DNA of 26,440 bases from a virus. The translations under genes and the position numbers were made by a program. Within the stretch, counting starts at the first letter, position 1. Every line of letters starts with the position of its first letter. This document shows positions 3,484-24,057 of this stretch, one piece after another. Under the pieces are notes generated by a model. That model did no database searches. It worked only from the letters and a program-made list of their open reading frames with translations, and had not been told where the DNA came from. The stretch spans positions 1-26,440 of IMG/VR virus record IMGVR_UViG_3300020469_002331; one strand, given 5' to 3'.

Positions 3484-3506
3484 ACTCAGAAGCGTCTGTC
3501 TAGATA

Positions 3507-3971
3507 ATGCCCACAGCAATAAAACCAAAACGAAGTACGACGGTTGGACAGATACCAGGTCTGTCCGATCTCCAAGATGGAGAACTGGCGATTAATATTG
3601 TAGACCAAAAAATCTACATTAGAAGTGGCGATAACATTGAGACTGTTGCATCAGCAGCAACAGGTGCGGTTCCAGTTTGGACATTATTAAGCACTAGCGG
3701 TCAAATGACAGTCAATAAACGCTATGTTATTGACACATCATCAGCAGAATTAACATTTGCTATGCCCACTGTTGGTTTATCCATCGGTGATAGTATAGAA
3801 ATACACGATGCTGCGAACACATGGGCTATAAATAATGTTATTATTACTGACGCTGTGAACAAATTTAGAGATGCAATAGGAAATTTGGAGTCACCTCCAT
3901 TGATTTTAGATGTCGCCTCTATCACTGTTATGCTTTTATGGAACGGATCTTATTGGAACATCATTAGCTAA
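3507..3971 (+). CDS. Small virion/fibre protein with shared distal module
   Basis: The 154-residue protein has two parts. Residues 1-45 carry a phage fibre signature: repeated basic start (PKRSTTVGQIP), then LQDGELAINI and DQKIYIRSGD, the strand motif seen in many tail-fibre N-termini. Residues about 55-154 form a beta-rich module ending in VMLLWNGSYWNIIS. This module resembles the last 98 residues of the 1345-residue fibre at 4334-8371, with common positions TSS, GDSI/GDSV, DAANT/DVAKT, and W-N/R-I-I near the end. It probably sits on or near the tail fibre. Preceded by a late promoter and followed by a TAATG overlap with the next gene. Confidence 0.7.
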   Translation: MPTAIKPKRSTTVGQIPGLSDLQDGELAINIVDQKIYIRSGDNIETVASAATGAVPVWTLLSTSGQMTVNKRYVIDTSSAELTFAMPTVGLSIGDSIEIHDAANTWAINNVIITDAVNKFRDAIGNLESPPLILDVASITVMLLWNGSYWNIIS

Positions 3972-8440: not shown

Positions 8441-9286
8441 ATGGCTGACTATCAAACTTATAAAAAAATTAACGGTACTAATGCCCTGATAGATGGTAGT
8501 GTCCCTTCAACTAAGACGACTGGATTGTCAACTGCGGTTGTAAGACAAAACTATTACTATGATTGCTGTTACTGGGATCCTGAGAATGGTGGTTGCTGTT
8601 TTCTATGGACTGTCCCTTCAAATGTCTCTACTATAAAATTTGAGATGGTAAGTGGAGGAGGATCTGGAGGTCCAGGTCGTTGTTGTTCATCAGGATATAA
8701 CCCAGGTGGATCAGGAGCATACGGTATTAAGACATTATATTCACATACAGGAGACTTTACACCAGGATCATCACAATATACTATCTGTGCTGCAGCATCA
8801 ACAAGATGTTCTTGTTGTGGATGTTGTGTAGGTAGAACTGGTTGTGGATTCTGTGGATGTACAACTTATGTTCAAGGTCCAGGTTTAAATAACTTCTGTG
8901 CAACAGGTGGATCATGGGGTCACCATAAATGTGGATCATGGTGTTATACTTGTAAGATGCAGACACAGTGTAACTGGTGTCGTAATGAGGTACAGGGTTG
9001 TGTTTGTGGTAACTGGGACTTCGCTCTCGGTGGAATCAACGGTTCAGACTCTGCTAACCAGTACTGTAACACTGAGCACTACCCACAAACAGGTGCAGTA
9101 CCAGGTCCTTGGGGTGCATCATTCGTTAGAGGTCGTGCAAAATGTGGTTCTGGTAACACTGTTGGTTGTTGCTACGGTCACGCACTATTCCCAGGCGGTG
9201 GTGGATTTACTGCAGGTACTGAAGGATCTAACTGTTGGGGAAGTTTCGGTGCAGGTGGACTAGTTGTTGTAACATACTGGTCATAA
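8441..9286 (+). CDS. Cysteine- and glycine-rich putative adhesin
   Basis: The 281-residue protein has 28 cysteines by my count (10%), many as CC pairs or CxC/CxxC clusters, for example RCSCCGCC and CGFCGC near residues 122-139. After a short N-terminal part (LIDGSVPSTKTTGLS), residues about 55-75 (LWTVPSNVSTIKFEMVSGGG) look like the start of the glycine-rich domain common in phage fibre tips. Gly-rich runs (PGGGGF, GAGGLVVVTYWS) close the protein. Aromatic residues (Trp, Tyr) are frequent. There is no signal peptide or membrane helix. Position directly after the large fibre, behind its own terminator and late promoter, suggests a tip adhesin or decoration protein, possibly disulfide-linked or metal-bound. 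The function is inferred; I know no characterised homologue. Confidence 0.72.
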   Translation: MADYQTYKKINGTNALIDGSVPSTKTTGLSTAVVRQNYYYDCCYWDPENGGCCFLWTVPSNVSTIKFEMVSGGGSGGPGRCCSSGYNPGGSGAYGIKTLYSHTGDFTPGSSQYTICAAASTRCSCCGCCVGRTGCGFCGCTTYVQGPGLNNFCATGGSWGHHKCGSWCYTCKMQTQCNWCRNEVQGCVCGNWDFALGGINGSDSANQYCNTEHYPQTGAVPGPWGASFVRGRAKCGSGNTVGCCYGHALFPGGGGFTAGTEGSNCWGSFGAGGLVVVTYWS

Positions 9287-9323: not shown

Positions 9324-10112
9324 ATGGCTACACAAGTAAATAAAACATTTATCTTTCCAGTACCAACACAATGGTTGGGACAGGATCAAGATGATGCAAA
9401 CGCAGGAGTTGCAACATACATCGGACCTAAAAATCTAAAGGTCTGGTTAGAGTATGATACAGATGGAGTGACAAAAACAGATAAGATTGTGGATACAGTT
9501 GACCCAACAAGGTCAGACTATCCTGATCCATTACCTGCTAACATATATGCAGTTGATCTAGATGCAGACTTGTATCCAGAAACTGCTGCTGCATTGTATG
9601 GTGGTATCGCAGGTCCTTTACATATAGAAGTGGTAGCAGGTCCTTCATCAGACCCTAACCCTTATATTGAAGATCCCGCACACTTCTCAGAAGTATATGA
9701 CATGTGTAGTTTTGGTTGGGATCCAACTCTAAACTCTGGTGCAGGTGGATGGAAGACTCCAATATATTCACATGAAATTGATGATGTAGAGAAAAGTGAT
9801 ACAACATTTGGTTGGGATTGGGTAAGAAGAATTAGAAACAACATGCTAACAGCATGTGACAATAGAGTTCCTGCAGATGCTGTAGACACAGCATTCGCAC
9901 AAACTTGGAAGGATTATCGTCAGAAGTTAAGAGATCTTCCTTCTGATTGGGTAGGAGTAGGTACTGCAACACACTTGATAGTGTGGCCAAGAGATCCTGA
10001 CATGGTAGTTAAGGACGCAGAAGTTAAAGCAAATAAAGAAGACTCTTCTTTAACTCCAGATGATCCTAACTACTATGGTGGTGTCATAGCAAACGAAAAC
10101 CCTGATGTCTAA
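9324..10112 (+). CDS. Tail accessory/assembly-like protein
   Basis: A 262-residue acidic protein. Residues 1-60 are strand-like (KTFIFPVPTQWLG, NLKVWLEYDTDG). The middle has many Asp, Pro and Trp residues. Residues about 160-205 contain a helical stretch with RRIRNNMLTACD and then WKDYRQKLRDLPSDW. The W..YR..LRDLP pattern is common in phage tail-fibre assembly chaperones and other tail accessory proteins; here it is the only family hint. It has its own perfect late promoter and a strong terminator 26 bases after the stop, so it is probably a single-gene late unit closing the first structural block. Chaperone versus virion component cannot be decided from the sequence. Confidence 0.6.
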   Translation: MATQVNKTFIFPVPTQWLGQDQDDANAGVATYIGPKNLKVWLEYDTDGVTKTDKIVDTVDPTRSDYPDPLPANIYAVDLDADLYPETAAALYGGIAGPLHIEVVAGPSSDPNPYIEDPAHFSEVYDMCSFGWDPTLNSGAGGWKTPIYSHEIDDVEKSDTTFGWDWVRRIRNNMLTACDNRVPADAVDTAFAQTWKDYRQKLRDLPSDWVGVGTATHLIVWPRDPDMVVKDAEVKANKEDSSLTPDDPNYYGGVIANENPDV

Positions 10113-10116
10113 AACA

Positions 10117-10186
10117 AAATTGACTTTTTAGTTACAAGATTCTGGGAAAATTTTTTCCAGAATTTTTTTGACCCTTAAGATTTTTT
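10117..10186 (+). repeat. Intergenic module, copy A
   Basis: This stretch shares its layout with 24066-24134: AAAAT, then ACTTTTT, then TTACAA, a hairpin, a T-run ending in TTTTTTGACC, and GATTTTT. From ACTTTTT to the end of GACC is 51 bases here and 50 in copy B, and from GACC to GATTTTT is 9 versus 10 bases. The hairpin stems differ. Confidence 0.55.
10139..10169 (+). terminator. Rho-independent terminator
   Basis: ATTCTGG (10139-10145) pairs with CCAGAAT (10156-10162), with further G-T and A-T pairs possible inside, and is followed by an uninterrupted T-run to 10169. It ends the transcript of the gene at 9324 and separates the structural block from the sugar island. Confidence 0.85.
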
Positions 10187-10190: not shown

Positions 10191-11003
10191 ATGCAAGACC
10201 ATGTGAATTATGAAGTAAATAGAACTGGATCAGAGTTTGATCCAATTAAATACTTCAAGATGTTTGACCTAAGCGATGACTTAGAAGTAAAGGTTCTAAA
10301 AGATATAGGACCTCAAAAGAAATCAGTAGTAGTAATAGATAATTTTTATAAAGATCCTGATTCTGTAAGACAGTTGTGCTTGGATTCTCATAAGAGAAAT
10401 GATCCTGGTCTGCTGTCTTATTTGCCAGGAGAAAGAGTTTATCTTGAAACCACAGCAGTAAAACAAAAGATTAAACATATCTTTGATGATTTATGTTTTG
10501 ACACAGATATATGGAGTGGTGGAGAGTGGCAAAATAGAGAATGGTACGAGAGAGAGTGGGGAAAAGCAGCATTTATGTGTAATGTTATTAATGATAGAAC
10601 TTTAAAAGACAAACCAGATGGTATAATTCCTCATCAAGACAAATATGATTTATCAATGCCTCCATTGTTCACACAATTTGGAGCAGTAATATACTTAAAT
10701 ACTCCAGAGGAATGTGCAGGTGGTACAAATCTCTGGAGTTTTGATGGTCAGATGTCCTTACCTAGGAAAGGACCTACAGCTATAGAACCACCTTCATATG
10801 ATCAAGATGCAATGACTCAGGAAGAAATATTTGATCACATTCATTGGTCATTATTTAATAATGATAGATGGAAGGTTGAACATAAGTTTGAAATGGTGTA
10901 TAATAGAATGGCATTGTATGAGTCACGAGTATTGCATAGTCAAAATGTAGATCTTGGTATGTTTACCGAATATGATCGCATAAATCAGGTTCTTTTTATG
11001 TAA
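10191..11003 (+). CDS. DUF6445-type 2OG-Fe(II) oxygenase-like protein
   Basis: A 270-residue protein. The N-terminal VVVIDNFYKDPDSVRQLCLD (residues 46-65) is the hallmark opening of the DUF6445 family. The core has GIIPHQDK with H148 and D150 as a metal HxD pair, then a FGAVIYLNTPEECAGGTNLW strand set, and YESRVLHSQNV with H249 as the distal ligand; R263 in the last strand could bind 2-oxoglutarate. The family is expected to adopt the dioxygenase beta-helix fold but its substrate is unknown. It opens the sugar-modification island, 11 bases before the glycosyltransferase gene, which suggests oxidation of a sugar or glycosylated protein; that is inference. Confidence 0.75.
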   Translation: MQDHVNYEVNRTGSEFDPIKYFKMFDLSDDLEVKVLKDIGPQKKSVVVIDNFYKDPDSVRQLCLDSHKRNDPGLLSYLPGERVYLETTAVKQKIKHIFDDLCFDTDIWSGGEWQNREWYEREWGKAAFMCNVINDRTLKDKPDGIIPHQDKYDLSMPPLFTQFGAVIYLNTPEECAGGTNLWSFDGQMSLPRKGPTAIEPPSYDQDAMTQEEIFDHIHWSLFNNDRWKVEHKFEMVYNRMALYESRVLHSQNVDLGMFTEYDRINQVLFM

Positions 11004-11014
11004 CTATATAAACC

Positions 11015-12052
11015 ATGAGATCCAAAGCATTTTTTATTAATGGTGGAGCAGGTAGAGTCATCTGTTCTATCCCTGCACTTGAAAAGTATGCAGAGAACCA
11101 TGACGATTTTGTAATCGTAGCAGAAGGTGGTATGAACTTCTTCAAAGGTCATCCTGTCTTACATAAACACGCATATGATTATTGGCATAAAGGTTTGTTC
11201 GAGGACAAACTTAAGATGCGTGACTGTGTTACTCCAGAACCATATAGAATGTGGCATTACTACAATCAGAAGTGTAGTCTTGCACAGGCATATGATATGG
11301 AAATCAACGGTTTAGATGAACCTAGAGAACTTCCTAAACCAAATATCAGAGTAACAAAAACAGAGGGTATTAAAGCACTCAACACATTAGAACAAATAAA
11401 AAATACGACAGGAAAAGAGAAGGCAATAGTTATACAACCATTTGGTAGAGGTGTAGTAAATACAGATGGATATATTTTTGATCCAACCTCTCGAAGTTTT
11501 AATTTATCAGATATATCTACAATAATTAATGACTTAAAGAAAGATTATACTGTCTTGATTATGAGTGAGTTCCAATTCGATACAGGAGAAAGTAAGCATC
11601 CACATGCTATACCACAAGTTCCAGACATCAGATTATGGGCAGGTATAATACAGTGTGCAGATCATTTCCTAGGTTGTGATAGTGTTGGTCAACATATTGC
11701 TAGAGCAATGGACACGACTGCAACCGTTGTAACTGGATCTACATTCCCAATCAACATAACATATCCAAATGTAAACTCATTTGATCTCTTTGATATGGGT
11801 GAAGGTATTAGAACCTATTCACCTTTGCGTATGACTGAAGAAGACATGCAAGACATGGCTAATGATGAGTGTATGACCATGACAAAGGATGATGTTAAGA
11901 AAGTAATTGATAGTTGTAGAAAAAGATTAGGAAAATCAACTACTCGTAAGATAGTAAAGCAAGAACCAAAAGAAGAAAAAGAATCATGTTGTGACGATCC
12001 TTATTGTCCAACAAGCACAGTAAAAACTCCAACCAAAGGTTTTAAACAGTAA
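11015..12052 (+). CDS. GT9-like glycosyltransferase (heptosyltransferase-like)
   Basis: A 345-residue GT-B type protein. It opens with FINGGAGRVICSIPALEKYA, matching the nucleotide-free N-domain start of ADP-heptose:LPS heptosyltransferases (usually GxGDxxxxxPxL). Residues about 133-145 (KAIVIQPFGRG) begin the C-domain. Residues about 216-240 (HFLGCDSVGQHIARAM, then TTATVVTGST) match the D-S/T-G-x-x-H-x-A nucleotide-sugar site of family GT9. A charged C-terminal tail of about 45 residues has a Cys cluster (ESCCDDPYCP) unlike typical GT9 enzymes. Given hldE-like and hldD-like genes downstream, ADP-heptose is a plausible donor. The acceptor is unknown. The gene shares one base with the next (TAATG). 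Confidence 0.75.
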   Translation: MRSKAFFINGGAGRVICSIPALEKYAENHDDFVIVAEGGMNFFKGHPVLHKHAYDYWHKGLFEDKLKMRDCVTPEPYRMWHYYNQKCSLAQAYDMEINGLDEPRELPKPNIRVTKTEGIKALNTLEQIKNTTGKEKAIVIQPFGRGVVNTDGYIFDPTSRSFNLSDISTIINDLKKDYTVLIMSEFQFDTGESKHPHAIPQVPDIRLWAGIIQCADHFLGCDSVGQHIARAMDTTATVVTGSTFPINITYPNVNSFDLFDMGEGIRTYSPLRMTEEDMQDMANDECMTMTKDDVKKVIDSCRKRLGKSTTRKIVKQEPKEEKESCCDDPYCPTSTVKTPTKGFKQ

Positions 12053-13914
12053 TGTCAGAATGGATTGCAGCAGTCTCTAGAGGACACAATGCTAGTGTAG
12101 CACTACTAAAAGATGGTGAAGTTGTATTTAATATAGAAGAGGAGAGACTCACCAGAGTAAAGTATGATGGTGCACCATTAGCATGTATCACTAAGATAAA
12201 AGAATACACAGATAAGTTAGACTATCTTATCTTAGTACACACTACAAGATTAGATCAGCATAATTTTAAGATGGATTATTGTGGTGATGATCCTTACTTT
12301 GGTCTTGCTAGAAAGATGGGTTTGGTTGATAAACCTAGAGACATTGAGTTTGGAGAGTTGCCTGATAATGTTATTGACATGGGAGACAATCATCATAGAT
12401 GTCATGTTGCAACAGCATTTTATAACTCAGGATTTGATAAGGCAGTAGGTGTTGTAGTAGATGGTGCAGGTTCATGGGTTAAGTTTGGTAGTAAAGAAAA
12501 ATTTATGGAGGATTATTGGGAGACAGAAACAATATTTGATTGTGGATACCCAGATATATTTGACACAAAATACAAACACATAGGAACTAAATTTGCTGCA
12601 CCTGTCTGTTACTATAATAGATTTGATAGTGCATTCTGGGATGGTTATGGTCAAGGAATAAGATATGAGTCACAGAAGAATGAATACCATGAACTGTATG
12701 CTACACCAGGTGCAGGTATAGTAAAATGTTATGAAGCAGTGACTGAGTATTGTGGATTCCCTGCTATTGAAGCAGGAAAAGTCATGGGATTATCTCCTTA
12801 TGGAAAAGATCCAGAGTATCTACCACCATTTTTTAAACAATTTGGTGTTGCTCCAATGATGTCAGCAAGTAGAGATGTATTCACTCCTTACTATCCTAAT
12901 GGTGCTATCTTTAATATGCATATGTTACCAGAAGTATTAGATATAGGAGATGAAAATGAGAACAATCCTAAGTTATATAATTGCCAGAATAGAAAAGATG
13001 CTGCGTGGAAGATACAAAAAGAAACTCAAGAACAAGTCCTAGAATTAATTCGTAAGGCAGTTAGAGATACTGGACATAAAAATGTAGTGTTGACTGGTGG
13101 ATATGGACTGAATTGTGTTGCAAACTATTGGTTTTTAGAACAATTAAAGGATGAGAACATATGTTTGTATGTCGAACCAGTTAGTAATGATTGTGGTACA
13201 GCACTAGGTGGAGCGTTGTTATGGCATCATAGGGTCAATCAAGACACTAGGAAACGAAAACCAATTAAAGACCTTTACTTAGGTCCCAAATATGATTACA
13301 CTAATAAGGAGATTGAAATGACTAGCGAAAAATATAATGCACAAGTAGCAGAAGCAACACATGAAACTGTTGTAGATCTAATAAAGAATAAAAATATTGT
13401 TGCATTATTTCAAGGTAGATCAGAAGCAGGTCCTAGAGCATTGGGCAATCGTTCTTTTTTATATGATCCTACAGATCCTAATGGAAAAGATCATGTTAAC
13501 TCTGTCAAAAAGAGAGAGTTCTTTAGACCATTTGCAGGTACAATACTAAAAGAACATGTGCATGAGTGGTTTGACCTTCGTGGTATGGATGAGACACCAT
13601 TCATGATGTATGCAGTTAACTGTCAACCAGGTATAGAAGAGAAGATACCTGCTATTATTCATGTTGATAAAACATGTAGGATACAAACTGTAACAGAAGA
13701 ACAAAATAAACATTACTATGATATTATTAAAGCATGGTATGATGCTACTGGTTGTCCTATCATATTCAATACATCATTCAACTTAGGTGGTGAACCATTG
13801 GTTGAGACACTTGATGATGCAATCCGCACAATAACTACAAGTGATGTTGAATATCTATATCTTCCAGAGTATAATAAAATTATTATTTCTAAGAATGAAA
13901 ACCAACTACCTTGA
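12052..13914 (+). CDS. Full-length NodU/TobZ-type O-carbamoyltransferase
   Basis: The 620-residue enzyme has both family domains. The N-terminal Kae1-like domain shows SRGHNASVALLKDG (9-22), IEEERLTR, the metal site DNHHRCH with H114 and H118, VVVDGAGSW with D137, and an LTGGYGLNCVANYW motif. H114, H118 and D137 carry the same numbers as in TobZ, as I remember it. The C-terminal YrdC-like domain starts after about residue 410 and has SEAGPRALGNRS (457-468), KKREFFRPFAG and FNTSFNLGGEPLV. The family makes carbamoyladenylate from carbamoyl phosphate and ATP and transfers the carbamoyl group to a hydroxyl, typically of a sugar. A related metavirome enzyme is known to carbamoylate 5-hydroxymethylcytosine in DNA, so DNA is an alternative substrate. 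Genes on both sides point to a sugar. Confidence 0.92.
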   Translation: MSEWIAAVSRGHNASVALLKDGEVVFNIEEERLTRVKYDGAPLACITKIKEYTDKLDYLILVHTTRLDQHNFKMDYCGDDPYFGLARKMGLVDKPRDIEFGELPDNVIDMGDNHHRCHVATAFYNSGFDKAVGVVVDGAGSWVKFGSKEKFMEDYWETETIFDCGYPDIFDTKYKHIGTKFAAPVCYYNRFDSAFWDGYGQGIRYESQKNEYHELYATPGAGIVKCYEAVTEYCGFPAIEAGKVMGLSPYGKDPEYLPPFFKQFGVAPMMSASRDVFTPYYPNGAIFNMHMLPEVLDIGDENENNPKLYNCQNRKDAAWKIQKETQEQVLELIRKAVRDTGHKNVVLTGGYGLNCVANYWFLEQLKDENICLYVEPVSNDCGTALGGALLWHHRVNQDTRKRKPIKDLYLGPKYDYTNKEIEMTSEKYNAQVAEATHETVVDLIKNKNIVALFQGRSEAGPRALGNRSFLYDPTDPNGKDHVNSVKKREFFRPFAGTILKEHVHEWFDLRGMDETPFMMYAVNCQPGIEEKIPAIIHVDKTCRIQTVTEEQNKHYYDIIKAWYDATGCPIIFNTSFNLGGEPLVETLDDAIRTITTSDVEYLYLPEYNKIIISKNENQLP

Positions 13915-13915
13915 T

Positions 13916-14074
13916 ATGAATAACCCTTTGAGTCCAGTAAAAATGGTAAGAGAATCTTACTCTAAATGGTTACAAAAAAATGTAACAGAAGTACAGGTGC
14001 AATTTGAAGAGGAAGAACCTACATGGATACCTTATGATACTCTACTAGCAATTATGAATAGAATTGAAGCATGA
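13916..14074 (+). CDS. Small hypothetical protein (52 aa)
   Basis: The start is set at ATG 13916, one base after the carbamoyltransferase TGA; the frame remains open further upstream, but that part lies inside the carbamoyltransferase gene. The product has a basic helical N-terminal half (VRESYSKWLQKN) and an acidic middle (QFEEEEPTWIPYDTL). It is a soluble protein with no recognisable motif. It overlaps the next small gene as ATGA, so the four genes from 13916 to 15408 are probably translated in series. No function is recognised. Confidence 0.6.
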   Translation: MNNPLSPVKMVRESYSKWLQKNVTEVQVQFEEEEPTWIPYDTLLAIMNRIEA

Positions 14075-14265
14075 AATTAACACAAGAAATTATTGACCAG
14101 ATACAGGAGGCAATGCTTCATACTAAAAAGAATGGTGATATTAATTGGGAAGATAGTGATGAGATACAAGTTCAATTAGCAGGGACTTGGGCAGCAGATA
14201 AGTTTATTGTGATAAAGAATGTTACTAAGAGTAGCACATCACTTCATAACTTTAAAAGTAAATGA
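14071..14265 (+). CDS. Small hypothetical protein (64 aa)
   Basis: It starts in an ATGA overlap with the previous gene and ends in an ATGA overlap with the adenylyltransferase gene, good evidence that it is real. The N-terminus is helical (LTQEIIDQIQEAMLH). A central part (DINWEDSDEIQVQLAG, then KFIVIKNV) could form two strands. No catalytic, membrane or DNA-binding motif is visible. No function is recognised. Confidence 0.65.
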   Translation: MKLTQEIIDQIQEAMLHTKKNGDINWEDSDEIQVQLAGTWAADKFIVIKNVTKSSTSLHNFKSK

Positions 14266-14663
14266 AAACTATCTTTGTTAATGGTACATTTGATTTACTT
14301 CATCCTGGTCATGTATCGTTACTTACATGGGCAAAAAGTCTTGGAGATTACCTTGTAGTTGGTATTGATACTGATGACAGAGTAAAAGAAAAGAAAGGAT
14401 CTAGTCGTCCCATATATAATCAAACTGACAGAGGACTCATGTTAGTTTCTATGTCAGCAGTTGATGAAGTCAGGTATTTTGATAGCGATGAGTCGTTAGA
14501 AAACTTGGTAAAAGAAGTAAAACCTGATATAATAGTAGTAGGTTCTGATTGGAAAGGTAAAACTATTATCGGATCTTATTATGCTGCCGAACTTAAATTT
14601 TTTGATCGTATAGAAGAGTATGCAACTACAAAGACAATACAATGTATTATTGATAGGGGATAG
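14262..14663 (+). CDS. hldE2-like: HldE-type heptose-1-phosphate adenylyltransferase domain protein
   Basis: The 133-residue protein is a stand-alone nucleotidyltransferase of the cytidylyltransferase fold. Residues 5-20 (FVNGTFDLLHPGHVSL) contain the HxGH nucleotide site (H14-P-G-H17). GSSRP (46-50), SAVDEV, then VVGSDWKGK and a C-terminal YATTKTIQ follow the order of the C-terminal domain of E. coli HldE (KGDSRP, LEAVDWV, VKGGDY, CSTTNII). This domain makes ADP-D-glycero-beta-D-manno-heptose from the 1-phosphate and ATP. The next gene encodes the matching kinase domain, supporting the assignment; alone, glycerol-3-phosphate or other cytidylyltransferases would be possible. Linked by ATGA overlap upstream and a 44-base overlap downstream. 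Confidence 0.78.
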   Translation: MKTIFVNGTFDLLHPGHVSLLTWAKSLGDYLVVGIDTDDRVKEKKGSSRPIYNQTDRGLMLVSMSAVDEVRYFDSDESLENLVKEVKPDIIVVGSDWKGKTIIGSYYAAELKFFDRIEEYATTKTIQCIIDRG

Positions 14664-15408
14664 CTGCACTGATGAATGGGCATACGGATCTTGTGATCGT
14701 CTAAGTCCAGAAGCACCTATACCAGTCATGAAATTTAGGGAGCATCAAAGTGCACCTGGCATGGCAGCAAATGTATATGAAAATTTAAAATCTCTTGGAA
14801 TAGAAGTAAATTTTCTAACCAATAGAGAAAAGATAGTAAAGACAAGATATGTAGATGATAAATCTAATCAACAGATCATGAGATTAGATACAGAACCTGA
14901 TGTAAAACCATTACATCCATCTCAATTAACTATGGCAGCAGCACATAGTCAGTATGATGCTGTTGTTATATCTGATTATGATAAAGGATTTGTAGGATAT
15001 GACATCATAGATTTGTTAGCAAGACAAAATCCTAACATAAAAATTTTCATCGACACTAAGAAAAAGAAGTTACCTACACAATACAGTAATATAATTTACA
15101 AAATTAATAAGAGAGAGTTTGAATTATTAGATCCTAACCATATACCTAGAGGAGAAAATATGATTGTTACTCATGGTGCTAATGGTGCACTGTGGGATCA
15201 CAAAACATTTCCTGTTCCTATCACTAGAGTATTCGATGTGACAGGTGCAGGTGACACATTCTTAGCAGCATTAGTATTCTATTATATACAATTGCCATCA
15301 CTTGATGAGTGTATTAATTTTGCAAATAGATGTGCAGCAATTGCAGTCCAGAATCCTGGCACATATACATTGACAATGGAGGATGTAGATGGAATCATTA
15401 AACCCTAG
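14620..15408 (+). CDS. hldE1-like: HldE-type heptose-7-phosphate kinase domain protein
   Basis: The 262-residue PfkB-family kinase follows the HldE kinase domain closely: VLLIGDSCTDEW (9-20), RLSPEAPIPVMKF, a PGMAANVYENLKSLG segment (Gly-rich sugar site), the NQQIMRLDTE substrate region, and FDVTGAGDTF with D212 as the likely catalytic base. HldE kinase phosphorylates D-glycero-D-manno-heptose 7-phosphate at C1. The domain is shorter than the roughly 320 residues usual in HldE. ATG 14620 overlaps the adenylyltransferase gene by 44 bases. An alternative TTG/GTG start nearer 14650 would cut into the first beta strand, so ATG 14620 is preferred. In many bacteria the two domains are fused, kinase first; here they are separate and reversed. 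Confidence 0.82.
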   Translation: MQLQRQYNVLLIGDSCTDEWAYGSCDRLSPEAPIPVMKFREHQSAPGMAANVYENLKSLGIEVNFLTNREKIVKTRYVDDKSNQQIMRLDTEPDVKPLHPSQLTMAAAHSQYDAVVISDYDKGFVGYDIIDLLARQNPNIKIFIDTKKKKLPTQYSNIIYKINKREFELLDPNHIPRGENMIVTHGANGALWDHKTFPVPITRVFDVTGAGDTFLAALVFYYIQLPSLDECINFANRCAAIAVQNPGTYTLTMEDVDGIIKP

Positions 15409-16552
15409 GGTATTAGGATATCATACATCACATAATGCATCTATCGCTGTTGTAGAAGATGGAAAGATAAGTTGGGGAATAGAAGAAGAAAGAATTAGTC
15501 GTAAAAAACATGATCAAGTTCCTGCTCTAGCAATCACTAATTATATTAATAAAAATATTGATATCGCATTACATTCCTCACTGATACATCCAGATCAGAT
15601 AGACAATATTAATTATGTAATGAAAGTATGTCAAAGTTTAATTACTAAAGCAACTAGCAAACAAATACAACCAAAGAAAACAATATTTGTTGATGAGCAA
15701 GGTGAGATGTCTGGTTGGTTTAAACGACCACCAGAACCTGAGTTCGTTGACTGTAGTGAGAACCATCATTTATATCATGCTGCATTAGGATTTTACAACT
15801 CAGGATTTGAAGAGGCAGCAGTGTTAGTTGTTGATGGTGCAGGTGCATGGGTAAATAAATCTGGTCATGAAGTAGAAACAATATACAAAGCATCTTATCC
15901 TTGTAATTTTGAAAAGATATCTCAATCAGCAGCTCCTTGGCATACCTTAATGGACACACATGAGATTGAAAGTCCTGCTTATGGTATTGGATTTGTTTAC
16001 TCTGCAGTAAGTGCTTTCCTTGGGTTTGGTACTCTAGAATGTGGTACACTTATGGGACTGTCAACATATGGTGAGGAAGATCCTAACATAAAACCTTTTG
16101 TTGTTGATGGAAAGATTGATGAGTCATTGTTCACAAGATATGTGCATGGTATAAAACTAAATCCATATCCTTACATTCAAGATAGAGAAGGATGGTGTGA
16201 TGTAGTTAATAAAAAATCTGTAGATCTTTCTAAACATAAACATCTAGTTAATCTTGCATGGAGATGTCAAAAAGATTTTGAAACTTATATGATTAATAAA
16301 ATTAAAGAAACATTAGAAGTTAGTAATAATATAATAATAACAGGAGGTTGTGCATTGAATTGTGTAGCAAATTATGAATACTTGAAACATCTACCAAAAG
16401 ATGCTAAACTATATGTTGAACCAAATTCTAGTGACGCAGGAATTTCTATGGGAATGGCAATGTATTGTTGGAGAGATATCACTCAATCAAAAGAGATATT
16501 TCCTCTTAAAAATCTTTACTTAGGACCTGAAGAGAATGAGATATTGTATTGA
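15389..16552 (+). CDS. Truncated carbamoyltransferase: Kae1-like domain only
   Basis: The 387-residue protein is clearly related to the full-length enzyme at 12052: YHTSHNASIAVVEDG (11-25), IEEERISRKKHD, the metal site ENHHLYH with H126/H127/H130, VVDGAGAW with D149, GTLMGLSTYG, and ITGGCALNCVANYEYL. It stops at NLYLGPEENEILY, exactly where the other protein enters its C-terminal domain (about residue 410). The YrdC-like domain that makes carbamoyladenylate is therefore missing, while the visible catalytic residues of the transferase domain are intact. There is no sign of frameshift: the next gene follows with a 17-base overlap and encodes an unrelated HAD protein. It may work with the full-length enzyme or another activity in trans. 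Confidence 0.85.
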   Translation: MESLNPRVLGYHTSHNASIAVVEDGKISWGIEEERISRKKHDQVPALAITNYINKNIDIALHSSLIHPDQIDNINYVMKVCQSLITKATSKQIQPKKTIFVDEQGEMSGWFKRPPEPEFVDCSENHHLYHAALGFYNSGFEEAAVLVVDGAGAWVNKSGHEVETIYKASYPCNFEKISQSAAPWHTLMDTHEIESPAYGIGFVYSAVSAFLGFGTLECGTLMGLSTYGEEDPNIKPFVVDGKIDESLFTRYVHGIKLNPYPYIQDREGWCDVVNKKSVDLSKHKHLVNLAWRCQKDFETYMINKIKETLEVSNNIIITGGCALNCVANYEYLKHLPKDAKLYVEPNSSDAGISMGMAMYCWRDITQSKEIFPLKNLYLGPEENEILY

Positions 16553-16886
16553 TATAGACTCAACAATCTGTACACCTGGCAAGTGTGGAACTTGTAGGTA
16601 TGAGGGTTCTACACCCATGCAAAGTAGAATAGATAAGATTAATAATCTTTATGATGAGGGTCACTATATAATATACTTTACTGCTCGTGCTATGGGAAGG
16701 TCTAGTGCTTTACCACATGAGGAGGCAAAGAAAAAGGCAGAAGATTTATTCAAACCTCTTACTGAAGCACAACTAAAGATGTGGGGATGTAAGTATCATG
16801 AATTGATTATGGGTAAACCACATGCTGACATCTTTATAGATGACAAAGCAATGAATAGTGAGGATTATTTTGAAAAAACAACCTAA
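16536..16886 (+). CDS. HAD-superfamily phosphatase
   Basis: The 116-residue protein starts MRYCIDIDST, where D6 and D8 are the HAD nucleophile and acid/base. YFTARAMG supplies motif II (Thr), and DIFIDDKAMNSEDYF near the C-terminus supplies the paired aspartates of motif IV. A short Cys pair (PGKCGTC) follows motif I. The compact length and motif arrangement fit small phosphatases of capsule and sugar-nucleotide clusters. In this operon it is a candidate for the missing heptose-1,7-bisphosphate phosphatase step (GmhB role), but it lacks the zinc-binding loop typical of GmhB, so that assignment is inference. Confidence 0.72.
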   Translation: MRYCIDIDSTICTPGKCGTCRYEGSTPMQSRIDKINNLYDEGHYIIYFTARAMGRSSALPHEEAKKKAEDLFKPLTEAQLKMWGCKYHELIMGKPHADIFIDDKAMNSEDYFEKTT

Positions 16887-17223
16887 ATTCGTACACAAAG
16901 GTTGGGGATATGAGAAGTGGATTGCAAACTCCTCAGAATATTGTGGTAAGTTATTGTTTATAAAAAAGAATCATAGATGTTCATGGCACTATCATACATT
17001 GAAAGATGAGACTTTCTATCTACAATCAGGAAAGATTCAACTATCATATAGCACAGAAGACGATAGAGATAAAGCAAATACAATAACACTAGAACCTGGC
17101 GATGCATTCCATTGTACTAGAGGAACTAGGCATCAAATGTTAGCACTAGAAGATGCAGAACTATTTGAATTTTCTACTGAACATTTTGATTCAGATTCAA
17201 ACAGAGTTATACCTGGCGACTAA
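16870..17223 (+). CDS. Cupin protein, mannose-6-P isomerase-like
   Basis: Residues about 35-55 show the cupin motif 1 pattern: CSWHYHTLKDETFYLQSG gives HxHx4Ex6G. GDAFHCTRGTRHQM is motif 2 with the second metal-binding His. The opening KPWGYE-like KGWGYEKW and the general layout resemble the C-terminal cupin of GDP-mannose pyrophosphorylase/mannose-6-phosphate isomerase. The start is uncertain: a GTG at 16858 extends the frame, but GAGG at 16860-16863 sits six bases before TTG 16870, which I prefer (117 residues). It overlaps the HAD gene and shares one base with the next gene (TAATG). Likely a sugar-phosphate isomerase or sugar-nucleotide tailoring enzyme. Confidence 0.72.
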   Translation: MKKQPKFVHKGWGYEKWIANSSEYCGKLLFIKKNHRCSWHYHTLKDETFYLQSGKIQLSYSTEDDRDKANTITLEPGDAFHCTRGTRHQMLALEDAELFEFSTEHFDSDSNRVIPGD

Positions 17224-17846
17224 TGGATATAAGAAATAAAGTAGAAGTAATTGACAACTTCATTCCTAAAGCATATCAAGATATGATACACCAAGTTTTA
17301 ATGGGAGATGAAGAGTTTGAAGTTGAAGATAAAAATGATCGAGGATTTCCTTGGTATTATACTGAAGATATAACAGCAGCAGGTTCTTCAGAGAGTCAAC
17401 ATAGAGCTGGTTTTAGTCATCAATATGTTTCATTTTATGATGATGATGATGATGCATTACCAGAACCATTCATAGAGAGTGAGTATCATAGATTATTTGT
17501 ACCTATGTTAAGAAGGGTATGCCAACATTTAGATATAAAGGGAATGAATGTAATACAAGGAAGATCTTTCTTACAACTACCTTTAGGATTAAGAAGCACA
17601 ACTCCTGACCTACCACACATAGATATGAATGATAAAGAACATCTTGTAGCACTATATTATGTTTGTGATAGTGAGGGAGATACTATTATATACAACGAAA
17701 GAAAAAAGAGTCTTAATTATACAGTTAAAGAAAAAGTAACACCAGTGAAAGGTAGAATAGTTCTTTTTGATGGTACATTATATCATACAGCAGAACAACC
17801 TAAGTATAGAAGTAGATGCGTAGCAAATTATAATTTAGATTACTAG
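17223..17846 (+). CDS. 2OG-Fe(II) oxygenase in sugar island
   Basis: The 207-residue protein begins KVEVIDNFIP, a usual opening of phage dioxygenases. It has H132-I-D134 (LPHIDMND), then a GRIVLFDGTLYHTAEQP strand with distal H188, and YRSRCVANYNL with R198 for 2-oxoglutarate. It is related in layout to the protein at 2995-3477 but longer. Residues 73-77 are five Asp in a row, encoded by a (GAT)5 run at 17439-17453, which could vary in length by slippage. The gene is last in the + strand sugar operon and its end overlaps the end of the opposite-strand epimerase gene by 12 bases. Substrate is unknown. Confidence 0.8.
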   Translation: MDIRNKVEVIDNFIPKAYQDMIHQVLMGDEEFEVEDKNDRGFPWYYTEDITAAGSSESQHRAGFSHQYVSFYDDDDDALPEPFIESEYHRLFVPMLRRVCQHLDIKGMNVIQGRSFLQLPLGLRSTTPDLPHIDMNDKEHLVALYYVCDSEGDTIIYNERKKSLNYTVKEKVTPVKGRIVLFDGTLYHTAEQPKYRSRCVANYNLDY

Positions 17847-18653
17847 AGCTTGACCTGGTAAATTTAATCTCTCAATATATTCTTTAACTGTTAAGAAATT
17901 ATAATCTTTTAACCAATCCATATCTGCTATGGTATAATATTGATACTTACCCTTAAGATGAGGAGGAAATGGTATTGGAACAAGTGACGACCCAGTTTTT
18001 AGTGAAACTAATCGAGCTACAGTGTCAATTGATGTTGGCTGCCCTGTGCCAAGATCGAATATGCCAGAACCCGCAGTGTTTTGTAAAACTATCTTCACCA
18101 GATCTCCCACCCATACATAGTCCCTCAGAACCTCATCAGATCCCTCGAAGGGATGCACCTGTTGAGTCGCACGAGCCTGCCACCAGAACTGAGACACTAA
18201 ACTCGCCATCAAACCCTTAGACTCTTCACCAGATCCATAGACATTAAAGTATCTGAACCCTTGTATGTGTTCAAACTCATCTATGTTATCCATAACCCAG
18301 TAGTCAACTGTAATTTTAGATAGAGCATAATAATTTAATGGATTTATTTTATCTTTTTGTGTACCATATACTGATGCTGAACTAGCATACTTGACTGGGA
18401 TCTTATGTTTGATTGCTTTTTTAAATAATTCTATAGAAAATACAATATTATATTTGTAGATAGCATCAATATTAATATTAGTTGTGGATGATAGTGCACC
18501 CTGATGTATTATCATGGATACTTTATCCCATTCGTTAAAATTTTGTATAAAATTAAAACAATTATCTATATTAACTTCGATCAAACCATCGTATGAACAC
18601 ACTGTTTGAAAGTGCTTCCCAATGAATCCATCAGATCCTGTGAGGATAATCAT
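17835..18653 (-). CDS. hldD-like: ADP-heptose 6-epimerase-like protein (HldD-like)
   Basis: A 272-residue extended short-chain dehydrogenase and the only gene on the minus strand. TGSDGFIG (5-12) binds NAD(P). HQGALSSTT (50-58) matches the HldD signature HEGACSSTT. SSASVYG follows, and Y109-A-L-S-K113 is the catalytic pair. RYFNVYG comes next, then LRDYVWVGD and LGTGQPTS, and KGKYQYYTIAD near the C-terminus matches HldD (KYQ.FT.AD). HldD inverts C6'' of ADP-D-glycero-D-manno-heptose. It is about 40 residues shorter than E. coli HldD (310). The gene has its own sigma70-like -10 and runs convergent to the + operon, so it probably arrived separately. A UDP-glucose-4-epimerase relative is less likely. 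Confidence 0.82.
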   Translation of the reverse strand: MIILTGSDGFIGKHFQTVCSYDGLIEVNIDNCFNFIQNFNEWDKVSMIIHQGALSSTTNINIDAIYKYNIVFSIELFKKAIKHKIPVKYASSASVYGTQKDKINPLNYYALSKITVDYWVMDNIDEFEHIQGFRYFNVYGSGEESKGLMASLVSQFWWQARATQQVHPFEGSDEVLRDYVWVGDLVKIVLQNTAGSGIFDLGTGQPTSIDTVARLVSLKTGSSLVPIPFPPHLKGKYQYYTIADMDWLKDYNFLTVKEYIERLNLPGQALVI

Positions 18654-18702: not shown

Positions 18703-21486
18703 GTGCTTAGAGCCGTGATAGGAAGACTTTCATCGTTAAAAACTACATTTCAACTGGGTACAGTATCTAATACCTTATTATATACTGCTACCGATTTGAT
18801 TACATTAACTGTCTCGGCAGCAAACCAGACAGAGGATAAACTAACTCATTCAGTTTCCATATCAGGTGACAGTGGTATTAGGAACGCAATAATTAAGACA
18901 GGTGGTAGTGGATATGTTGATGACACCAACGCATCACCTACTGGAGGTAATGGATCAGGAGCAGTCGTTGCTTATACAACAACAGGTGGAGTAGTAACAG
19001 GTTTAGATTTTGTATCAGATGGTGCTGAGTATTTGGTGGGTGATATTCTTACCCTTACTAACCCTAATGCAGGTGGTGTTACATCTATTGGTGGTCTTAT
19101 TGAGGATTCTCAGACAGGAAAGACAGGTGGTAGTGGGTATTCCCCAGAAGGATATGTCTATGGTGTTGCTACAACTGCAGAGACTGGAACTGGAACAGGG
19201 TTAACGGTTGACATATATGTTGATGGAAATAACGAGATAACTTCTGCGGTGCTTAAAGATCAAGGCCAGGATTATGAAGCAGGAGATATCATTGAAATAA
19301 CAGGTGCTAATGGTGCTGATGCAAAGTTTGCTGTATCTACAGTTCATGGTAACGGTGCTACATTAGAAGTAACTGAAGTCTATGCTAATTCTGACTCAGA
19401 CTACCTAGCATACGGTATACCATTAGAAGTTGGTGGTAATGCACTGTATGAGAACATCACATTAAAGAAAGGTGATACAGTTTATGTCTCTTCATCTGAA
19501 CCAGGCGTTAGTTTCGTAGCGATAGCATCTAAGATATATCCAAATATAAAATTAGATATACAAAATAAATTAGGTAGACAAAATGCATATATTAGTAGCA
19601 CTGCTTTCCCTCAGATCAATGACAATGTAGGACTAGCAACTGCTGAATACGATGGTGTTGCAACTTTACATGTATCAAATAGAAACTCTGATAAAGGTGC
19701 AGCAGTATCATTAGGTATTGCATCAGGAAATATTGATAGTTTTACTGTTGCTGACTACTTCTTATTTGGATTAAGACTTAAACCATTACAAGATTTAACC
19801 ATTGACAACATTGGTATTGCTAGTGGTCAAACTCTAGTTACAAGAGCATCACAAACTGATGTGGCATTTGCTGCATACACAGAACCAACTATTGATGGAG
19901 CTAGTGGTGTCGGTACTGATGGTGATGTTAATACATCAGGTATTATAACTGCTGCTCAGTTCATTGGAGATGGTTCTGGACTAACTGGTGTTACTGCAGC
20001 AGGTTTTGGTGTCAGTATTACTGACAATGGTAGTAACATAGGTGTTGCTGCTACTATAAACTTTGGAACATTCTTAGAAGTCACTCCTCTCTCTGCAGGT
20101 ATTGCTACTGTTAATGTACCAAACCTAGTAGGAACAGCACAGACTGCACAAGTTGCTAATAGTCTTGCTGTAGGTGTTGCTGTTACTCTTGCAACTAAAG
20201 CAACTAATGCTGACTATGCATCAGTAGCAGCGATAGCAGGAGTTTCATCAGCATGCTCAGGTAATGCAGAGACAGCTAGTGTTGCATCTGGTATTACAAG
20301 TGATTTTGATATCATTACAAACAATCCAATCACAACATTTGATTTCTTCATAGGTGATGGTTCAAAACTAACAAATGTTACTGCAGTAGGAACAGGTATT
20401 GAGATAAAGAATAATGGATCTACTGTAGGAACTGCATCAACAGTAGACTTTGGTTTAAGTTTAGATGTTAGTGCCATATCAAATGGTATTAGTACAATAT
20501 CAGTACAGAAAGTTCCTCATGCTGACATCTGTGGTGTTGCTAGTTACTCTGACAAGTGTGGTGTTGCTACCTTTGCAACCAACGCAGGGATCGCTTCTAA
20601 TGCCCTTAATGCTAACTTTGCTGCTGCTTCATCGTTCTCTACCTTAACAGGTGCTGCAGAGACTTCTAAGAGTCTTTACACTGAGTACCAAGCACCATTT
20701 AAACCACTACCAACAACCATAGGTAACAAGACTGCAAACCATAGATATCTTGGCATCGGATCTGATAGATCAGTCAATGTCCAAGGTTATGAATCACCTT
20801 ACTTAAGGTTTGAAGTTGGTCAAACATATAGATTTACAAATACAAACAACAGCACCTATCCTCTTAGATTCTACTACAATGCTGCAGGAACTGGAGTTGG
20901 ATATGGTACTACAAGTCCAGTAGAGATGACTCAGGGTGTTACTGAGACTGGATCATATACAGAAATATCAGTTACTGAAGAGACACCTCAGTTATTCTAC
21001 TATGGTATGGGTGTTGGATCTACTATGGGTAGCATGGGTAACTCTGTGCAGGTATTCAATTATGAATTCCATAAGTGTCTTAAAGTAGGAGAATATAAAA
21101 ACCTAGCAGGACTTAAAACATGTACTCATACTCAAATGTTTGAGGGTCGTGCTACTGCATGGTACATGAACACAAACTTAGGTGTAGGTAACAGTGACTA
21201 TGTACCTGGCGATAGATCACACAATGTTAGTTCTATTGAACAGCAATCCACAGGTGTCTACCAAGTAAACTTTGCTGATGCAATGAATGATGAAAACTAT
21301 GCAGTGATGATTGATGGTAGAGGAACTACCAATTTTCCTGGCGGTATAGTAAGAGCAACAGTATATGATAGAACCGTGACAGGATTTGGTGTAACGATTT
21401 ACAACAGCATACCTGCAGTAGAAGATCTAAGGGATATCAACATAGCTGTGTTCGGAGGTCAAGACGGAGAACCTACATTCCTCTAA
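18703..21486 (+). CDS. Second large fibre-like structural protein
   Basis: Up to 927 residues from GTG 18703; GTG 18715 (MIGRLSS) is a better start given the late promoter. Residues about 66-121 and 140-201 are two TGGSGY...GDI units of the kind found in phage and surface beta-rich proteins. Residues 420-472 and 549-601 are a 53-residue duplication starting FIGDGS (29 identical positions by hand). An Ala/Val-rich stretch lies between. From about residue 650, SPYLRFEVGQTYRFTNTNNS and LRFYYN form a cupredoxin-like module common in marine phage structural proteins, and the end (NYAVMIDGRG, INIAVFGGQDG) resembles fibre C-terminal modules. No signal or membrane helix. Probable tail fibre or whisker. 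Confidence 0.8.
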   Translation: MLRAVIGRLSSLKTTFQLGTVSNTLLYTATDLITLTVSAANQTEDKLTHSVSISGDSGIRNAIIKTGGSGYVDDTNASPTGGNGSGAVVAYTTTGGVVTGLDFVSDGAEYLVGDILTLTNPNAGGVTSIGGLIEDSQTGKTGGSGYSPEGYVYGVATTAETGTGTGLTVDIYVDGNNEITSAVLKDQGQDYEAGDIIEITGANGADAKFAVSTVHGNGATLEVTEVYANSDSDYLAYGIPLEVGGNALYENITLKKGDTVYVSSSEPGVSFVAIASKIYPNIKLDIQNKLGRQNAYISSTAFPQINDNVGLATAEYDGVATLHVSNRNSDKGAAVSLGIASGNIDSFTVADYFLFGLRLKPLQDLTIDNIGIASGQTLVTRASQTDVAFAAYTEPTIDGASGVGTDGDVNTSGIITAAQFIGDGSGLTGVTAAGFGVSITDNGSNIGVAATINFGTFLEVTPLSAGIATVNVPNLVGTAQTAQVANSLAVGVAVTLATKATNADYASVAAIAGVSSACSGNAETASVASGITSDFDIITNNPITTFDFFIGDGSKLTNVTAVGTGIEIKNNGSTVGTASTVDFGLSLDVSAISNGISTISVQKVPHADICGVASYSDKCGVATFATNAGIASNALNANFAAASSFSTLTGAAETSKSLYTEYQAPFKPLPTTIGNKTANHRYLGIGSDRSVNVQGYESPYLRFEVGQTYRFTNTNNSTYPLRFYYNAAGTGVGYGTTSPVEMTQGVTETGSYTEISVTEETPQLFYYGMGVGSTMGSMGNSVQVFNYEFHKCLKVGEYKNLAGLKTCTHTQMFEGRATAWYMNTNLGVGNSDYVPGDRSHNVSSIEQQSTGVYQVNFADAMNDENYAVMIDGRGTTNFPGGIVRATVYDRTVTGFGVTIYNSIPAVEDLRDINIAVFGGQDGEPTFL
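18898..19305 (+). repeat. Two TGGSGY repeat units in fibre protein
   Basis: Residues about 66-121 and 140-201 both run KTGGSGY, a Gly/Ala/Thr-rich middle, a turn with Gly (GGVVTG or DGNNEI), then EYLVGDILTLTN or DYEAGDIIEITG. Similar as protein, diverged as DNA. Confidence 0.65.
19960..20118 (+). repeat. 53-residue duplication, copy 1
   Basis: Encodes residues 420-472, starting FIGDGSGLTGVTA and ending GIATVNV. Pairs with 20347-20505; same length, 29 of 53 residues identical by hand alignment. Confidence 0.8.
20347..20505 (+). repeat. 53-residue duplication, copy 2
   Basis: Encodes residues 549-601, starting FIGDGSKLTNVTA and ending GISTISV. No gap is needed to align with copy 1. Confidence 0.8.
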
Positions 21487-22886: not shown

Positions 22887-23356
22887 GTGACATTAACTTT
22901 AATAGACATCGTGTGTTCAGAGAAACAGACGATGTTATTTTTTATGATATATCAGTAGAGGAATCAAATGCAGCAGACTTAGTTGTTCATGAAGGTGCTG
23001 CAATATCACCTCCACCTGATTGTGTAGGAGGTAAACAGTTCTATATTCATAGTTTTCAAGATGATTGTAATAGAGTGGTACAGGGAGAAAGAACCTTTGA
23101 GTTAATCAATAGAGACTGGAAGAATCAATATCATATAGTACACCTCAACAGATACAGTGGTGCGTTAGTTATACCACGCAACACATTCCATAGGTCAGTG
23201 TCAGGTGAGGGTGGATCAATAGTAATCAATCAAGCAACGAGGTACGATGGGTTCGATCCTCATGCTGAGTTCTATCCAGTATCCACAGCAGAGAACAGAG
23301 AGTTATATAATATACTAAGAAATGTAGTTCCCGTAATTCACACAGTGGGAGAATGA
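22883..23356 (+). CDS. Cupin-like protein in nucleotide-sugar pair
   Basis: The 157-residue protein is mainly strands. KQFYIHSFQDDCNRVVQGERTF is followed by YHIVHLNRYSGALVIPRNTFHRSVSGEGGSIVINQATR, which reads like cupin motif 2 (PxxTxHR then a closing strand). Motif 1 HxH is weak: only IHSFQDD is seen. Phage and bacterial sugar clusters often hold such WbpE/FdtA-type or dTDP-sugar epimerase-like cupins. It is coupled by ATGA on both sides, next to a sugar epimerase, which supports a role in nucleotide-sugar or glycan tailoring. Metal dependence and reaction are not decidable here. Confidence 0.55.
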   Translation: MSDINFNRHRVFRETDDVIFYDISVEESNAADLVVHEGAAISPPPDCVGGKQFYIHSFQDDCNRVVQGERTFELINRDWKNQYHIVHLNRYSGALVIPRNTFHRSVSGEGGSIVINQATRYDGFDPHAEFYPVSTAENRELYNILRNVVPVIHTVGE

Positions 23357-24057
23357 AAGCACTCATCACAGGACACAAAGGTTTCATAGGATCATTTCTA
23401 TATGATCATCTTACATATCAATTTGGTGATACTATAGATGGTCTTGATTTCCCTGATGATATTGGAGATTTTAAGACAGATAAAATATATGACATTGTAA
23501 TACATCTTGCTGCATTTGCTGCAATTAGAGACAGTATAGATAATCCAGATAAGTTTTGGGAAAACAATGTCGAAAAAAGTAGACCAATATTCGATTATTG
23601 TAGAAACAATAATGTTCGACTACTTTATGCTAGTACCGCACAAGTTGAGGAGTGGTGGCAGAATCCATATGGTATTACAAAGAAAGTAAACGAGTTCATG
23701 GCTCCACCTAACAGTGTAGGTATGAGATTTCAAACTGTTTATGGTGAGAACAGCAGACCAGACATGCTGTATAGAATGTTAGAAGACAAGACTGCTAAGT
23801 ACATAACCAACCATAGAAGAGACTGGATTCATGTTAAGGATGTAGTTAGAGCAATATGTTACCTCATTCCTAGCACATATACAGGTACGGTTGATGTAGG
23901 CACAGGATTGACAGTATCAGTGAAGGAATTGGCAGAGAAATTTGGTCAAGGTGACCTACCTGTGAAGGCAGACACACCAGGCGAGAGAGACATCACATGT
24001 GCTGACACCACTACGATGAGAGAGTTAGGTTGGTTTCCAACCATTGAAATTCTATAG
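23353..24057 (+). CDS. NAD-dependent nucleotide-sugar epimerase/dehydratase
   Basis: A 234-residue extended SDR. GHKGFIG (7-13) is the NAD-binding glycine motif. HLAAFAAIRDS (51-61) follows, then ASTAQVEEW in place of the usual SS-VYG, and Y106-GIT-K110 is the catalytic pair. VGMRFQTVYGENSRPDM and RRDWIHVKDVV match the C-terminal substrate region, and VDVGTGLTVSVKELAEK closes it. It is short compared with the roughly 310-340 residues of typical epimerases, mainly through short loops and C-terminus. Only weakly like the minus-strand epimerase at 17835. Substrate sugar unknown. It is followed by the second copy of the intergenic terminator module. Confidence 0.85.
   Translation: MKALITGHKGFIGSFLYDHLTYQFGDTIDGLDFPDDIGDFKTDKIYDIVIHLAAFAAIRDSIDNPDKFWENNVEKSRPIFDYCRNNNVRLLYASTAQVEEWWQNPYGITKKVNEFMAPPNSVGMRFQTVYGENSRPDMLYRMLEDKTAKYITNHRRDWIHVKDVVRAICYLIPSTYTGTVDVGTGLTVSVKELAEKFGQGDLPVKADTPGERDITCADTTTMRELGWFPTIEIL

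Follow-up and report, generated by a model that had tools for sequence, protein, structure and literature searches.

A cyanophage gene block predicted to encode ADP-heptose synthesis, with a cupin as candidate for the isomerase step

Positions 10,191 to 18,653 of the viral record IMGVR_UViG_3300020469_002331 (IMG/VR) carry a block of sugar-related genes, which raises the question whether a phage could make and transfer an activated heptose with its own enzymes. The window, that is the whole stretch of DNA analysed, is a viral record of 26,440 bases with ends that are not known. An earlier note on this DNA had read the block as an ADP-heptose-type pathway without a visible isomerase, and all open reading frames named there are present with the coordinates and strands listed in Table 1. 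Because the window contains a ferredoxin-dependent bilin reductase gene (1186–1854, plus strand, PF05996), which points to a cyanobacterial host, and has relatives in P-SSM2, S-SSM7, S-CAM1, S-CAM3 and Sf-FS3, it is judged from its gene content to be a fragment of a T4-like cyanophage. We propose, with a probability of about 0.7, that the block specifies every step of ADP-heptose synthesis from sedoheptulose 7-phosphate, together with a pair of genes for transfer and decoration.

In the proposed pathway host sedoheptulose 7-phosphate would be converted to D-glycero-D-manno-heptose 7-phosphate by the cupin 16858, which would act in place of GmhA (genes are designated by the first coordinate in Table 1). 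The kinase 14620 would generate the 1,7-bisphosphate, from which the HAD phosphatase 16536, acting in place of GmhB, would release the 1-phosphate. The adenylyltransferase 14262 would then form ADP-D,D-heptose and the epimerase 17835 would convert it to ADP-L,D-heptose. Transfer of the heptose to an acceptor is assigned to the GT9-like protein 11015 and carbamoylation to its constant partner 12052, and the product might possibly be oxidised by 10191 or 17223.

The kinase, the adenylyltransferase and the epimerase are homologous to the Hld enzymes and retain those catalytic residues that were checked. For the kinase TIGR02198 is the best NCBIfam model (147 bits, ribokinase model 50 bits); the adenylyltransferase scores 113 bits with TIGR02199 versus 71 bits with the TagD-type model TIGR01518, and the epimerase 186 bits with TIGR02197 versus 40 bits for GalE. 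RLSPEAPIPV, KTR, QQ..RLD, SDYDKG and GAGDT are retained in the kinase (HldE motifs RISPEAPVPV, K(T/L)R and SDYxKG), its Asp212 aligns with Asp264 of E. coli HldE, and the HldE motif GGAAN appears as GMAAN. The adenylyltransferase contains HxGH, and residues S92, Y109, K113 and K146 of the epimerase correspond to S116, Y140, K144 and K178 of E. coli HldD. In a tree of the nucleotidyltransferases, the TagD sequences (three rows only, L208–L210, assigned to TagD from sequence; labels beginning with L denote the loci compared) were separated from all phage and HldE-C sequences with a support of 100/100. The tree and the score margin together rule out 14262 as a TagD-type glycerol-3-phosphate cytidylyltransferase, and a grouping with glycerol enzymes, which the earlier note had named as an outcome that would speak against it, was not found. 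The ADP-heptose-type synthesis it had read from the block is supported by this tree, by the catalytic residues and by the GT9 fold of 11015 described below.

The next component of the pathway, the HAD protein 16536, matched a single model, TIGR01689, weakly and below its cut-off, and it does not fall into the GmhB family. It matches PDB 9iqw (EcbF/BcbF) with its whole length in a profile comparison (E=8e-19), and the catalytic DxD as well as the downstream K and D residues are invariant. The model scores and the 9iqw match exclude 16536 as GmhB and make it an EcbF/BcbF-type HAD. The label "phosphoheptose isomerase", which its family carries in PHROG and GenBank, was likewise rejected, since the protein is such a HAD without a SIS domain. 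Thus, the HAD phosphatase that had been placed in the pathway is present but is not GmhB. The virus of L196 contains the same pair of GT9-like and carbamoyltransferase genes as the window, together with a bifunctional HldE, a cupin and a GmhB-like HAD. This suggests that the EcbF-type HAD occupies the GmhB slot in other viruses, and replacement of GmhB by 16536 is fairly likely.

SIS_2/GmhA was found neither in the window nor in 56 other phage and viral records, in agreement with the earlier note, which saw no GmhA-type isomerase and concluded that heptose 7-phosphate must be supplied by the host or from elsewhere in the phage. That conclusion is not supported, because the cupin 16858 is a strong isomerase candidate and sedoheptulose 7-phosphate would then suffice; the tailoring role it had given to the cupin found no support. 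The cupin has the features of D-lyxose-type isomerases, an HxH..E..H metal site and KxE: the metal ligands H44, H46, E51 and H92 and the residue K49 are invariant. A profile match to the D-lyxose isomerase 2y0o covers most of its length (E=3.9e-9). The AlphaFold2 (AF2) model has a predicted local distance difference test score (pLDDT) of 96.5, and its four best Foldseek matches are D-lyxose isomerases. With PF07385 the cupin scores 17.5 bits, below the gathering score of 20.8, and the viral relative L028 reaches 22.3 bits.

The genomic context points in the same direction. Nucleotidyltransferase, kinase, HAD and cupin were present together in all nine complete cyanophage genomes examined, and the epimerase in seven of them; the co-occurrence of the gene set is therefore far above chance. 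The cupin also adjoins distant viral kinases (L024, L025, L027–L030, L032–L034). When cellular genomes were scanned with the phage cupins, the cupin was found in archaea and in bacteria of the candidate phyla radiation (CPR), where it takes the place of GmhA in HldD-HldE-GmhB-nucleotidyltransferase operons (for example L084, L086, L089, L090 and L106) and as cupin-kinase fusions (L067, L083, L097, L101). Sets of nucleotidyltransferase, kinase, HAD and cupin genes resembling the phage ones, close to the window in their nucleotidyltransferase, also occur on contigs of metagenome-assembled genomes labelled Planctomycetaceae and Euryarchaeota (L036–L038), which are probably viral sequences binned by mistake.

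Among the kinase, cupin and SIS_2 matches listed in 194 genomes of one phylum there were 47 HldE-type kinase genes, with a cupin nearby in 12 cases, GmhA in 19, both in none and neither in 16. This mutual exclusion is significant in a Fisher test (p=6e-4), in which neighbours were assigned by eye, G136 was counted twice and relatedness was ignored. A kinase tree, which corrects partly for relatedness and has long branches for L222, L221 and L067, requires nine changes of partner by parsimony, at least five of them forced by well-supported branches; one of the switches separates the closely related operons L216 and L226. The exchange concerns the same slot: cupin-HldD-HldE-GmhB-nucleotidyltransferase in L213 versus GmhA-HldD-HldE-GmhB/nucleotidyltransferase in L224 and L225. 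Fusions follow the same pattern, with kinase-cupin in L217–L220 versus kinase-GmhA in L227 and L232. In L222 a single open reading frame (2105–3532, minus strand) fuses GmhB, cupin and nucleotidyltransferase. Taken together, context, homology and fold indicate that the cupin is probably the isomerase that replaces GmhA.

On the host side, 81 picocyanobacterial genomes were sampled, all belonging to the family of Prochlorococcus AG-409-P03. HldE-like kinases with at least 170 bits were found in 15 of them, and in 12 of these a GmhA-like gene lies no more than 5 kb away. Altogether, 21 genomes had a GmhA-like match and 60 had none. The cupin was present in three genomes only, which led us to reject the idea that the module generally stems from the host. 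In one of the sampled genomes, that of Prochlorococcus AG-409-P03, a kinase of the phage type and the cupin lie approximately 12 kb apart (L207, 4926–5273 and 17282–18022, both minus strand), and no GmhA match was found in this genome. According to a review, heptose is absent from the lipopolysaccharide (LPS) of the marine Synechococcus strains WH8102 and CC9311 (PMC4515613), which together with the scarcity of HldE-like kinases agrees with the statement of the earlier note that marine Synechococcus LPS has been reported to lack heptose.

No Pfam and no NCBIfam model matched the putative transferase 11015. Its AF2 model (pLDDT 81.7) has the GT-B fold of GT9, as had been expected from the sequence, and the top structures in Foldseek (E about 1e-9 to 1e-7) were WaaF, TibC, WaaC and the GT9 protein 3tov. 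VIA gave Z 18–23 for these four, with a root-mean-square deviation of 3.3–4.1 over 250–278 residues. In the VIA ranking the first row that is not GT9-like has Z 11.9, and three chains of the chloroplast NDH complex are within the top Z 18–23. The DxxxxH donor motif of 11015 aligns with D261/H266 of WaaC. TibC heptosylates protein. Based on the model, we propose that 11015 is a heptosyltransferase that works like a GT9 enzyme, yet misses one defining feature, Asp13 of WaaC.

The transferase is directly followed by a carbamoyltransferase in all 81 viral loci, and for this reason a carbamoylated, oxidised product remains plausible; in 70 of 87 viral loci a DUF6445 gene lies immediately 5′ of the GT9-like gene. 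Of the two NodU-type carbamoyltransferases described earlier, 12052 has both the N- and the C-terminal NodU/TobZ domains, but 15389 has the N-terminal half alone, the C-terminal domain not being found in it. The short form is conserved, with similar proteins in S-SSM7, Sf-FS3 and L018, and the same slot holds a full-length carbamoyltransferase in L143 and L155–L157. Both oxygenase-like genes were confirmed, 10191 as DUF6445/2-oxoglutarate (2OG)-like and 17223 as weakly 2OG-like; the latter differs among the relatives. Carbamoyltransferases might instead act on modified DNA bases of the 5-hydroxymethylcytosine type, so that the block would serve genome modification, and a phage carbamoyltransferase linked to 5-hydroxymethylcytosine modification has been described (PMC8670742). 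Against this, the carbamoyltransferase always follows the GT9-like gene and lies among heptose genes, and no hydroxymethylase was found among the window open reading frames examined, which makes this explanation very improbable. A role of the block in defence was discarded, as there was no PADLOC match save one weak 2OG match.

Several observations weigh against the proposed pathway. The cupin fold alone does not decide the function: in the VIA comparison of the model, Pac13 and CapF rank higher than D-lyxose isomerase by about one Z unit. In addition, quercetinase has the best local profile score, cupin folds are functionally promiscuous and span many reactions, and several cupin-bearing genomes hold a GmhA-sized SIS protein elsewhere. 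Related viral kinases (L019, L021–L023, L031, L035) have no cupin in their records. All three Hld-like proteins are below the curated equivalog cut-offs (kinase 147 versus 345 bits, adenylyltransferase 113 versus 181.5 bits, epimerase 186 versus 274.6 bits), and the kinase lacks one middle segment of HldE. In 11015, the base Asp13 of WaaC is replaced by Arg14, which is invariant across both aligned sequence sets. The hairpin upstream of the block partly separates it from the tail gene 9324. Finally, we infer the two replacements, cupin and HAD, and every enzyme activity of the module from comparison with known proteins and from gene context.

Two other explanations draw on these points. Firstly, the cupin might catalyse some other reaction, for instance an epimerisation further on, or have a regulatory role, with heptose 7-phosphate supplied by a host GmhA. 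The GmhA-like matches in 21 of the 81 host-family genomes, the range of cupin reactions and the genomes that hold both proteins are consistent with this, but the 60 genomes without a match, the slot replacement, the fusions, the mutual exclusion and the repeated partner switches on the kinase tree speak for the isomerase, and we consider the alternative unlikely. Secondly, nucleotidyltransferase, kinase and epimerase could make another activated sugar such as an ADP-hexose or a CDP-polyol, their likeness to Hld enzymes being ancestral. The scores below the cut-offs, the shortened kinase and the use of pentoses and hexoses by the lyxose/mannose isomerase relatives of the cupin would agree with such a product. 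The margins of the best models, the retained Lys178 of HldD, the position in the nucleotidyltransferase tree, the GT9 heptosyltransferase fold of 11015 and the locus L196, where HldE and a GmhB-like HAD occur in the same setting, argue against it and render it quite improbable. In L019, L021–L023, L026, L031 and L035 related viral kinases, approximately 40% identical, stand beside other epimerases with no cupin or HAD nearby (in L026 a cupin is encoded at another place of the record), and these kinases possibly serve a different sugar. In L007 and L008 (S-SM2, P-TIM68) the kinase is directly preceded by genes for a thiamine pyrophosphate enzyme, which carries the annotation transketolase, and for a zinc alcohol dehydrogenase; their product may be a branched sugar or else a precursor of sedoheptulose.

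The heptose product could be attached to a protein on the surface of the virion, for example a tail fibre, which we tentatively favour, slightly, over host LPS, because the module is located among tail genes and 11015 has a TibC-like fold. Alternatively, ADP-heptose would decorate LPS or another surface glycan of the host during infection, for example to block superinfection, in which case the cupin could act as isomerase all the same; this is a serious possibility, at somewhat less than even odds. Such a function has been proposed for the P-SSM2 LPS clusters (PMC2984593; see also PMC3037559), LPS is a cyanophage receptor in some hosts (PMC4390846), and in S-SM2, P-TIM68, S-T4 and Sf-CH8 the core genes are part of larger sugar or glycosyltransferase cassettes away from tail genes. 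The position among tail and neck genes in the window, P-SSM2, S-CAM1, S-CAM3, S-SSM7 and Sf-FS3 argues against host LPS, as does the presence of a protein heptosyltransferase, TibC, among the nearest folds of 11015.

An ATAAATA late-promoter-like site lies 30 nt upstream of the 9324 start and another at 18687 before 18703, and four of the six sites precede a start by 10–45 nt (binomial p=6e-5, with the list of open reading frames and the distance window chosen after the sites were seen). ATAAATA is not enriched overall (6 sites versus 11.5 expected). The hairpin 10136–10168 keeps its stem and T-run in L018 despite changes on both sides of the stem, with a z-score of only −1.76. The sites before 9324 and 18703 would fit late co-transcription, which, given the missing enrichment, the choices made after the fact and the conserved hairpin between tail gene and module, was not taken as proof that the target is a virion protein.

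Two further genes of the window are of interest. A 281-amino-acid protein very rich in Cys (28) and Gly (52) is encoded between two fibre/tail genes (8441–9286, plus strand), has three relatives in S-SSM7 and is a possible adhesin or acceptor. At 23353–24057 (plus strand) there is a second, short NAD-dependent epimerase-like protein, whose close relative in P-TIM68 adjoins the heptose genes.

Table 1. Features of the block and its flanks, with the basis of each assignment.
Feature	Coordinates	Strand	Basis
Tail-assembly-chaperone-like gene upstream of module	9324..10112	+	PF16778 E=1.3e-9
Terminator-like hairpin, conserved, between tail gene 9324 and module	10136..10168	+	
DUF6445/2OG-Fe(II)-oxygenase-like protein, part of unit	10191..11003	+	PF20043 E=1.6e-10
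GT9-like (GT-B) glycosyltransferase, proposed heptosyltransferase	11015..12052	+	AF2 fold
NodU/TobZ-type O-carbamoyltransferase, full length	12052..13914	+	PF02543 + PF16861
HldE-C-like nucleotidyltransferase (putative heptose 1-phosphate adenylyltransferase)	14262..14663	+	TIGR02199 E=1.1e-32
HldE-N-like PfkB kinase (putative heptose 7-phosphate kinase), middle shortened	14620..15408	+	TIGR02198 E=5.9e-43
Second carbamoyltransferase, N-terminal (Kae1-like) half only	15389..16552	+	PF02543 alone
EcbF/BcbF-type HAD phosphatase, proposed 7-phosphatase in GmhB slot	16536..16886	+	TIGR01689 weak
Cupin, proposed sedoheptulose-7-phosphate isomerase in place of GmhA	16858..17223	+	Profile, fold, context
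2OG-Fe(II)-oxygenase-like protein, accessory	17223..17846	+	PF13640 E=1.8e-4, below cut-off
HldD-like putative ADP-heptose 6-epimerase	17835..18653	-	TIGR02197 E=9e-55
Fibre-like structural gene downstream of module	18703..21486	+	Annotated tail fibre of relatives in same position

The pathway would turn the puzzle of the cyanophage "LPS" genes (P-SSM2 and relatives) into a testable prediction, ADP-heptose made from a Calvin-cycle intermediate, and this in hosts whose LPS is reportedly devoid of heptose. The isomerase family is also predicted to close a gap in the pathway of those archaeal and CPR genomes that have HldE and lack GmhA, and the phage-record labels "cysteine dioxygenase" for the cupin and "phosphoheptose isomerase" for the HAD would be corrected. 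A wider claim, that the cupin family, unrelated to GmhA, is a second, convergent sedoheptulose-7-phosphate isomerase swapped repeatedly with GmhA in archaea and CPR bacteria and that cyanophages employ it in a full pathway by which carbamoylated heptose is put on their own fibres with an Arg-for-Asp GT9-like enzyme, is speculative and, as a whole, rather doubtful. Three points appear to be new, namely the role assigned to the cupin, the phosphatase in place of GmhB and the Asp-to-Arg change of the transferase; no report of a cupin as this isomerase was found in a literature search that had most subscription journals outside its reach.

The module itself is widespread, and its genes were grouped as LPS genes before, so that a phage supply of heptose is not the singular case it had seemed. 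The co-occurring T4-GCs 304, 305, 307 and 308 were reported as LPS genes in 2010 (PMC3037559), and a paper of 2020 names heptose genes in a cyanophage (PMC7378029). In the parts of these papers that were consulted, neither a complete pathway nor a function of the cupin is put forward; records give the HAD the label "phosphoheptose isomerase".

Compared with the E. coli pathway GmhA-HldE-GmhB-HldD, the phage kinase, adenylyltransferase and epimerase are homologous and share the catalytic residues checked, whereas kinase and adenylyltransferase are separate proteins, the kinase is shortened, and a cupin and an EcbF/BcbF-type HAD apparently stand in for GmhA and GmhB. The cupin shares fold, metal ligands and the motifs N-x3-YC-x-K, K-x-ETF and E-x-S with the D-lyxose/D-mannose ketol-isomerases 2y0o and 7nzo, but it is shorter, about 25% identical and has heptose genes as genomic partners. 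16536 resembles the EcbF/BcbF capsule-biosynthesis HADs (TIGR01689, PDB 9iqw) over its whole length and differs from them in standing among heptose genes and in scoring under the TIGR01689 cut-off. The whole-length fold and the DxxxxH motif are common to 11015 and the GT9 enzymes WaaC, WaaF and TibC, in contrast to a sequence identity of about 10%, the lack of a Pfam match and the invariant Arg for Asp13. The cyanomyovirus "LPS" clusters (T4-GC 302–308; P-SSM2, S-SM2, S-SSM7) contain the same gene families in largely the same order.

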